The notes under the pieces: model-generated
What the model saw: the letters and a program-made list of their open reading frames with translations, nothing else
Told to the model about the DNA's origin: nothing
The model's database searches: none
Position numbers and translations under genes: made by a program
Origin: Lysobacter antibioticus HS124
Lineage (GTDB): Bacteria > Pseudomonadota > Gammaproteobacteria > Xanthomonadales > Xanthomonadaceae
DNA: 37,947 nt
Reading direction: 5' to 3'
Assembly: GCF_000336385.2 (NCBI RefSeq)
Contig: NZ_HG424514.1
Span: forward strand, 1 to 37,947
Shown: positions 14,599-17,121 of the stretch, piece by piece
Layout of the letters: each line of letters begins with the position of its first letter
Position numbering within the stretch: position 1 is the first letter of the stretch

Positions 14599-17121
14599 TT
14601 ACTCGACCGTCACTTCGACCCGCCGGGCCTCTCTGGCGTCGCCGCTGCCGGTGGTGACCGCCGGCTTGTCGAGCGCGATGCGTCCGGCGACGATGCCCTG
14701 GCTTTCCAACCAGGCCTGCACGGCTTGCGCGCGCTGCTTGGCCAGTTCGGCATTGGTCGCGGCGCTGCCGCTGGTGTCGTGGAAGCCGGAGATGCGCGCC
14801 TTGCGCTCGGGCTCGGCCTTGAGCGCGGCGACCACGCCGGCCAGTTCGGCGGCGGCATCGGCCGGCGGTGTCGCCGAGCCCACGTCGAAGTACAGCTTGG
14901 CGTTGCGCGAGTCGGCGCCGGCGCTCGCGTCCGCGCTCGCCGCCGGCTCGCCGGACGCGGGCGCCGCCGTGTCGGCGGCGGCATCGCCCGGCGTCGGCGC
15001 CGGTTCGCCGGTGGCCGCGGCCACGGCCGAACTGGTGCCGTGGGTCGCCGTGGCGGCATCGCCGGCCGTGCCGGCGACCGGCAACAGCGGCACCAGCAAC
15101 AGGGCGACGATGTTGATGATCTTGATCAGCGGATTGATCGCCGGGCCGGCGGTGTCCTTGTACGGATCGCCGACGGTATCGCCGGTGACCGCGGCCTTGT
15201 GCGCCTCCGAGCCCTTGCCGCCGTGATGGCCGTCCTCGATGTACTTCTTGGCGTTGTCCCAGGCGCCGCCGCCGGTGGTCATGGAAATGGCCACGAACAG
15301 GCCGGTGACGATGGTGCCGATCAGCAGGCCGCCCAGCGCCTTGGGCCCGAGCAGCAGGCCGACGATCACCGGCACCGCGACCGGCAGCAACGAGGGCAGG
15401 ATCATTTCCTTGATCGCCGACTTGGTCAGCATGTCGACCGCCTTGTCGTACTGCGGCTTGCCGGTGCCCTCCATGATCCCGGCGATCTCGCGGAACTGGC
15501 GCCGCACTTCCTCGACCACCGCGCCGGCGGCGCGGCCGACCGCTTCCATCGCCATCGCGCCGAACAGGTAGGGAATCAGGCCGCCGATCAGCAGGCCGAT
15601 GATGACCATGTGGTCGGATAGGTCGAACGCGAACGTATGTCCGGGGTGCGCGGTGTGCAGGTTGTGGGTGTAGTCGGCGAACAGCACCAGCGCGGCCAGC
15701 GCCGCCGAGCCGATCGCATAGCCCTTGGTCACCGCCTTGGTGGTGTTGCCGACCGCGTCGAGCGGGTCGGTCACGTCGCGCACCTCCGACGGCAGTTCCG
15801 CCATTTCGGCGATGCCGCCGGCGTTGTCGGTGATCGGGCCGTAGGCGTCGAGGGCGACGATCATGCCGGCCATCGACAGCATCGAGGTCGCGGCGATGGC
15901 GATGCCGTACAGGCCGCCGAACGCATAGGACGCGTAGATCGCCACGCACACTGCGATCACCGGCAAGGCGGTGGACTTCATCGATACGCCGAGGCCGGCG
16001 ATGATGTTGGTGCCGTGGCCGGTGGTCGAAGCGGCGGCGACGTGCTTGACCGGGCCGTACTGGGTGCCGGTGTAGTACTCGGTGATCCAGACGATCGCGC
16101 CGGTCAGGATCAGGCCGATCAGGGCGCAGACATAGAGGTTGGTCGCGCCGTACTTGGCGTCGCGCATCATTTCGGCGGTGATCGGATAGAACGCGATCGC
16201 CGCCAGCACCGCCGAGACGATCACGCCCTTGTACAGCGCGCCCATGATCGAGCCGCCGCGGCCGTTATTGGAATCGCCCACCTTGACGAAGAACGTGCCG
16301 ATGATCGAAGCGATGATCGACACGCCGCCCAGCACCAGCGGATACAGCACGCCGTGGCGGCCGATGTCGGCCGCCATCAGGCCGCCGAGCAGCATGGTCG
16401 CGATCACCGTGACCGCGTAGGTCTCGAACAGGTCGGCGGCCATGCCGGCGCAGTCGCCGACGTTGTCGCCGACGTTGTCGGCGATCACCGCCGGGTTGCG
16501 CGGATCGTCCTCGGGAATGCCGGCTTCGACCTTGCCGACCAGGTCGGCGCCGACGTCGGCGCCCTTGGTGAAAATACCGCCGCCGAGGCGGGCGAAGATC
16601 GAGATCAGCGAGGAGCCGAACGCCAGGCCGACCAGCGCATGCAGCGCCTTTTCGCCGAGGATGCCGAAATGGCCGAGCGCGGCGTAGTAGCCGGCGACGC
16701 CGAGCAGGCCGAGGCCGACCACCAGCATGCCGGTGATCGCACCGCCGCGGAACGCCACGTCCATCGCCGGGCCCATGCCCTTGCGCGCGGCTTCGGCGGT
16801 GCGCACGTTGGCGCGCACCGACACGTTCATGCCGATGTAGCCCGCCGCGCCGGACAGCACCGCGCCGAGCAGGAAACCGATCGCGGTCGGCCAATTGAGG
16901 AACAGTCCGATCACCACGAACAAGACCGCGCCGGCCACGCCGATGGTGGTGTATTGGCGGTTGAGATAGGCGCGTGCGCCTTCCTGGATCGCGCCGGCGA
17001 TCTCCTGCATGCGTTGGTTGCCGGCGGGTTGTGCGCTGATCCAGCGCGCGGAGACGATACCGTAGAGGATCGCGATGACGGCGCAGCCCAGCGCCAAGGT
17101 CAAACCGTACTGCTCCAGCAT
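14599..17121 (-). CDS. hppA: Proton-translocating membrane pyrophosphatase fused to an OmpA-like domain
   Basis: The 840-residue protein has two parts. Residues 1-685 form a full membrane pyrophosphatase with about 16 helices, coupling cytoplasmic PPi hydrolysis to ion export. The signature DVGADLVGK (189-197), DNVGDCAGM (219-227) and [12 protein letters not shown] (646-657) are intact. NTTKAVTKG (459-467) has Lys462 and Thr465, the pair found in K+-independent proton pumps. After the last helix (about 666-684) comes an Ala/Pro/Gly-rich linker and an OmpA-like domain (739-840) with [27 protein letters not shown] and ARRVEVTVE. Membrane PPases end on the periplasmic side, so this tail could bind peptidoglycan. 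The start at 17121 is chosen for its GGGGAGGGG ribosome binding site; a GTG at 17154 would add 11 residues. Confidence 0.93.

Follow-up and report, generated by a model that had tools for sequence, protein, structure and literature searches.

We analysed a window of 37,947 nucleotides, the whole stretch of contig NZ_HG424514.1 of Lysobacter antibioticus HS124 considered here, in which a single minus-strand gene (14599..17121) encodes an H+-pumping membrane pyrophosphatase with a C-terminal OmpA-like domain. We consider it probable that this pyrophosphate (PPi)-driven proton pump is tethered to peptidoglycan by its tail, and that such a tether has been gained more than once. More interesting than the fusion in the window is the observation that the same OmpA-like module is shared across energy complexes.

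Architecture of the fusion

Translation of the minus strand of 14599-17121 gives 840 residues, starting with MLEQYG, without internal stops and with the stop codon at 14599-14601, while an alternative GTG start 33 bases upstream would give 851 residues. The membrane pyrophosphatase domain with its 16 hydrophobic segments spans residues 15-676 (15094..17079, minus strand), where PF03030 (H_PPase) is matched over its complete profile (1-645 of 645; 929.7 bits, cut-off 29.7), and the best NCBIfam match is the pyrophosphatase equivalog NF001951 (1178.6 bits, cut-off 859). The motifs of the pump are in place, namely an 11-residue motif from residue 189, DNVGDNVGD (215), GNTTK (458), DNAKKYIE (622) and a 12-residue motif (646), and GNTTK carries the Lys of the K+-independent type, which we take to be the mark of such pumps. 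The core is covered by solved pump structures and is helical in the full-length AlphaFold2 model, with a predicted local distance difference test score (pLDDT) of mostly 85-97. It is followed by a linker rich in Ala, Pro, Ser and Gly (residues 685-738; 14908..15069, minus strand), recognised by its disorder in the model, its composition and its ratio of nonsynonymous to synonymous substitution rates (dN/dS), and by the OmpA-like domain (residues 739-840; 14602..14907, minus strand), in which PF00691 (OmpA) matches residues 744-832 (51.5 bits, cut-off 27.2, E 1.3e-13).

The original prediction, made from the letters of the window, described a full pump, an Ala/Pro-rich linker and an OmpA-like fold at residues 739-840 with the blocks FHDTSG, QRA and RRVEV; the Pfam matches bear this out and all three blocks are found in the tail. 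It had also named a sequencing frameshift joining two genes as something that would refute this reading. Since each of the nine genomes of the same genus (9/9) among 198 sampled from the family is matched over residues 1-840 in a single open frame without internal stop, a frameshift or an assembly join is ruled out, and the fusion of pump and OmpA-like domain in one gene is real.

Fold and membrane side of the tail

Modelled by itself, the tail takes the OmpA fold that had been predicted, a beta-alpha-beta-alpha-beta arrangement with a mean pLDDT of 81 (three sequences in the alignment). Foldseek matched this model to solved OmpA-like domains, with 120 matches at E <= 0.001, the closest being OmpA with diaminopimelate (template modelling score 0.79), and VIA-align also matched it to OmpA-like domains. 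Residues 685-752, a stretch that includes the linker, have pLDDT below 50 in the full-length model. In the 31/33 fused tails in which the linker was measurable, it is 27-102 residues long, with a median of 61, and consists of 35% Ala.

A hydropathy scan placed the catalytic motifs after segments 5 and 15, that is after odd-numbered segments, and the tail after segment 16. Membrane pyrophosphatases hydrolyse PPi in the cytoplasm, and since the tail is opposite the active site, the OmpA-like domain is predicted to lie across the membrane from it, in the periplasm, where the C-terminal end had been expected. Searches of the open-licence literature for the topology of membrane pyrophosphatases returned nothing usable.

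Wall-binding residues and selection

Asp782 (14776..14778, minus strand) is by motif and spacing the equivalent of the wall-binding Asp of OmpA-like domains and is present in 32/33 fused pump tails, the exception being L148 with Ser, whereas Arg797 (14731..14733, minus strand), the equivalent of the wall-binding Arg, is present in 33/33. The two residues are 15 apart, just as the stem-peptide Asp and Arg are in OmpA numbering, and their role in wall binding is assigned from the OmpA site. Over these 33 divergent tails, R797 and eleven further positions are invariant, including N790, A798, K819, P820 and R833-V835, and F745 and D782 are nearly so.

Pairwise comparison of ten fused genes from the genus (45 pairs) gave median dN/dS values of 0.18 in the pump, 0.61 in the OmpA part and, with 33 usable pairs, 0.69 in the linker. 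Judged by these comparisons of sequences, the OmpA part is constrained, although loosely, with its binding pair kept. Of the two roles that had been proposed for the tail, a tether or a sensor of the wall, the conserved Asp/Arg pair thus makes the tether appear the likeliest, whereas nothing beyond the domain itself speaks for sensing.

Distribution and history of the fusion

Within the family, at least 20/198 genomes match up to residue 839 or 840. A search by the tail alone gave strong matches in 15/119 family genomes from five genera, all 15 frames being pumps; five further family genomes gave six matches of lower strength (E from 4e-12 to 7e-11), none of them on a pump. The fusion is thus not general in Xanthomonadaceae. 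The closest named relative found, Lysobacter sp. Root916 (L004), groups with the genus of the window on the pump tree, and the 16 unfused Xanthomonadaceae pumps that were compared are 86-90% identical to the pump of the window.

In the class sample, among the matches listed, 1/369 matched a Glaciimonas fusion end to end, and this one was the window itself; such a search is blind to fusions with diverged tails. In a phylum sample of 299, no end-to-end match was among the matches listed outside Xanthomonadaceae and the families f108 and f191. Family f108 is here called Burkholderiales-type, since on the pump tree it is interspersed with Comamonadaceae and Ideonella; 12 of its 30 best-scoring pumps carry the domain and 18 end in an Ala/Pro tail of 30-58 residues with no domain. 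A fused pump was found in 6/79 genomes of f191, a family in which one tail is identical to the Glaciimonas tail. Among plasmids, the Glaciimonas fusion was matched by 20 records, none of which covers more than 80% of it, and one weak match was obtained by the tail alone, so no fusion was seen there. A Hydrogenophaga locus (L016) matched up to residue 797 was rejected as a fusion, the pump stopping after 680 residues.

Pumps with an Ala/Pro-rich tail of 30-64 residues and no domain were observed at L011, L022, L030, L043, L054, L146, L172 and other loci, and this linker-only state accounts for 27/168 rows of the pump tree. No OmpA remains were found in the frames around these 27 pumps or up to 900 bases past their stops (one match, E 0.49), and we therefore do not claim linker-only tails as worn-down fusions; the appearance of the tails of L167 and L105 was likewise not counted as evidence of decay. 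Among loci L001-L112, a separate OmpA gene just downstream of an unfused pump was found only at L027 (7190-8689, plus strand). It encodes 499 residues and was rejected as a pre-fusion ancestor, because its NRRVE ending is canonical.

On the pump tree (FastTree, 168 pumps, 33 fused rows), on which gain and loss are not separable, the fused state changes at least 13 times, with six changes forced by well-supported branches. A second tree was built from 138 OmpA domains, after removal of duplicate places and domains shorter than 80 residues; its columns are few and many of its forks are open. Here, 126 rows of the module type are split with a support of 99 from 12 others, some of which are outer-membrane OmpA proteins or lipoproteins. 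The pump tails of Xanthomonadaceae, 20 in number, form one clade (Shimodaira-Hasegawa-like approximate likelihood ratio test 90), while the remaining 30, which come from genomes of Burkholderiales type, require 14 changes and are mixed with other proteins. One row labelled as stand-alone (L248) is a pump whose frame is broken before the module, and it enters no pump tally. For approximately unbiased (AU) tests of clades, three more rows were dropped (L298, L293 and L194). A single clade of all 50 pump tails was rejected (p 0.021), and hence the fusion arose more than once; a single clade of the 30 Burkholderiales pump tails was not rejected (p 0.064). Within Xanthomonadaceae, the fusion apparently had one origin followed by losses or transfers, a direction that we infer from the trees. 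YidB-type proteins on the AU-test tree are divided, seven being placed among the canonical OmpA domains and seven in the module group.

The same module on other inner-membrane proteins

The OmpA part of a pump tail was used to search 100 f108 genomes, which gave 93 places in 54 genomes, and every frame was read and scanned with Pfam. OmpA was matched in 92 of the 93, and the partners were H_PPase (23), ammonium transporter (5), photosynthetic reaction-centre cytochrome subunit (5), COX2 (3), FixO (CcoO; 1), FixP (CcoP; 1) and an HlyD-type adaptor (1), with YidB-like (4), DUF937 (1) and DUF4398 (2) as the remaining families; the partner at L254 was named by eye as a small cytochrome c. In the ammonium channels (L313-L317) the module is N-terminal, after an apparent leader peptide and before an Ala/Pro linker, whereas in the other named partners it is at the C-terminus. 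For each named partner, the end that carries the module is the one that would be expected in the periplasm. Oxidase genes with a C-terminal module were observed for Cox2 (L190, L198, L202 and L297), CcoO (L185, and L200 and L244, which are one gene) and CcoP (L261), and at L293 an adaptor of the resistance-nodulation-division type, periplasmic, ends in the module.

As scored in the f108 sample, the Arg is kept in 93/93 modules and the Asp in 86/93. The exceptions are the five photosynthetic cytochrome modules with Ser, L298 with Tyr, and L282, which was scored on an odd first repeat and has Asp in its second. The closing block is of the ARRV type in 80/93 modules and NRRV in three. The 5.14-Mb genome of the window itself has ten PF00691 places; besides the pump, two of them were picked up by a search with its tail, at weaker E values of 4.8e-7 and 4.0e-4.

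The sharing of one module across energy and transport complexes suggests that they are fastened to the wall by a common means. In its widest form, this would make the distinct OmpA-like module a mobile wall tether of Burkholderiales and Xanthomonadaceae, by which H+-pyrophosphatase, aa3 and cbb3 oxidases, photosynthetic cytochrome and ammonium channel are held to the wall as a group, a reading that we put forward tentatively and with less than even confidence.

Several observations weigh against a wall tether, on the pump or in general. The OmpA-like domain is modelled with middling confidence in the full-length protein, where ten-residue means of pLDDT are 40-75 and residues 821-832 fall below 50, and three fused sequences stand behind the prediction. 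Of the 93 modules, 48 are on no named partner, a count that takes in both lipoproteins with DUF4398 and L248, the pump with the broken frame; 45 of these have a hydrophobic segment at most 170 residues before the module, and by eye most resemble single-helix anchors. All five photosynthetic cytochrome modules (L201, L277, L279, L287 and L288) have Ser in place of Asp, and some relatives of the module may therefore bind the wall differently. Finally, dN/dS is higher in the OmpA part than in the pump, and the domain is absent from most sampled relatives, which together indicate that the tail is not needed for pumping.

Neighbouring genes

A gene for a family I soluble pyrophosphatase (12084-12632, minus strand; PF00719, 195.6 bits) is situated some 2 kb away from that of the membrane pump. 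Such a gene is near the pump in 9/17 loci compared, five fused and four without the domain, and a small divergent gene is on the other side of the pump in 12/17. The neighbouring genes of fused and unfused relatives are partly the same. Beside the pump of the window, 13986-14480 (plus strand) encodes a small secreted protein that by eye resembles an F5/8 type C (discoidin-like) domain.

Alternative explanations

A wall tether has to be weighed against three other explanations of the tail, all of which we regard as unlikely. The one that survives best is that the domain is a neutral passenger, joined by chance and lost again without a selected role. The scattered presence of the domain, with its repeated changes of state on the pump tree, the weak constraint on the OmpA part and the many linker-only pumps would all fit such a history. 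In contrast, the invariance of R797 and the eleven other positions over divergent tails, and the near-invariance of D782 and F745, are not what a passenger would be expected to show, and neither is the repeated joining of the module to pumps and to the expected periplasmic ends of other complexes.

About as unlikely, in our judgement, is control of the kind known from MotB, in which wall binding by the tail would switch the pump on or off. Peptidoglycan binding is linked to activation of the flagellar stator, and MotB resembles the protein of the window in that it belongs to a complex that moves ions across the inner membrane and carries, on a linker, an OmpA-like domain in the periplasm. The cores differ, being MotA/MotB in the stator and the PF03030 pyrophosphatase here, and no MotA or MotB family was among the Pfam matches of the window at E <= 1. 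The linker, being disordered, weakly conserved in sequence and variable in length, would make a poor lever for such control, and Xanthomonadaceae pumps without the tail are otherwise closely similar to that of the window. The least probable alternative is that the tail may grip a protein partner rather than peptidoglycan, as Pal-type domains do with TolB and YfiB with YfiR: the fold matches do include Pal in complex with TolB and YfiB in complex with YfiR, but the conserved residues are those of stem-peptide binding, and the neighbours, to which this search was confined, are common to unfused pumps and indicate no partner gene.

Relation to known systems

The fusion had been put forward as a candidate for an undescribed system, which does not hold. 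A PeerJ review of 2024 (PMC11210485) describes and tabulates H+-pyrophosphatases with a C-terminal OmpA-related domain, with the 810-residue protein of Paucibacter sp. KCTC 42545 as an example, and states that the role of this extension "remains to be elucidated". Those proteins, like that of the window, are K+-insensitive membrane pyrophosphatases with a long C-terminal extension and an OmpA-like domain, and since such fusions are in print, the protein of the window belongs to an already described kind. Table 2 of PMC11210485 lists such proteins from Paucibacter, from Burkholderiaceae and from other, unplaced records of proteobacteria, and none from Xanthomonadaceae, whose tails form a clade of their own here, and the Asp/Arg pair and the sister fusions go unmentioned in the passages of that review on the extension. 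It was the only source on a pump/OmpA fusion found in the open-licence literature. In the relevant passages of two other papers, OmpA and pump clones are separate (PMC4602150), and an OmpA-matching open reading frame was set aside in a 2009 screen, being annotated as cytochrome c oxidase (PMC2716516). No paper uniting the pump, oxidase, ammonium transporter and photosystem I cases was found in the open-licence literature, a scope that does not establish absence in print.

OmpA, OprF, Pal, RmpM and TagL share the fold and the stem-peptide Asp/Arg with the tail of the window, but carry them on an outer-membrane barrel or lipoprotein, whereas here the domain is on an inner-membrane pump; the closing block also differs, being EARRVEV in the tail and NRRVE in OmpA-like peptidoglycan-binding domains. 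PsaB (7f4v chain aB) has an OmpA-like stretch at 757-829 of 872 residues, found by phmmer at an E of only 1.8e-4, and is also part of an energy-converting membrane complex, although this is the core of photosystem I and thus different from the pump. We take this chain to be the Gloeobacter protein with an extension that has been compared to domains binding the wall; no open-licence paper on this was found, passages of PMC7880944 being unrelated to it.

A probably tethered pump and its implications

Architecture, fold, membrane side, conservation of the binding pair and repeated joining are established here by computation. We infer from them that the tail binds peptidoglycan and restrains the pump, possibly to some benefit. 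By homology, the conserved 16-helix core would hydrolyse PPi in the cytosol and pump protons to the periplasm, where the chain would leave the membrane after helix 16 and reach the wall by means of its flexible linker rich in Ala. The fold, the residues and their spacing suggest that the OmpA-like domain would then use Asp782 and Arg797 to bind the stem peptide at its diaminopimelate. Membrane pyrophosphatases are homodimers, and each pump unit would hence have two wall grips. The likely effect would be slower diffusion and a fixed placement along the wall with catalysis unchanged. The module is optional, being absent from most sampled relatives, and it has become fused to pumps on more than one occasion and also to several further complexes of the inner membrane.

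To our knowledge, there is as yet little understanding of how respiratory and pumping complexes are positioned and retained in the bacterial inner membrane, and natural tail-less relatives with a pump 86-90% identical make this question of placement testable. The fusion in Lysobacter thereby passes from a catalogued oddity to one case of a recurring arrangement, which, if the wider reading is true, would mean that the bioenergetic machinery of the inner membrane has a layout ordered by the wall.
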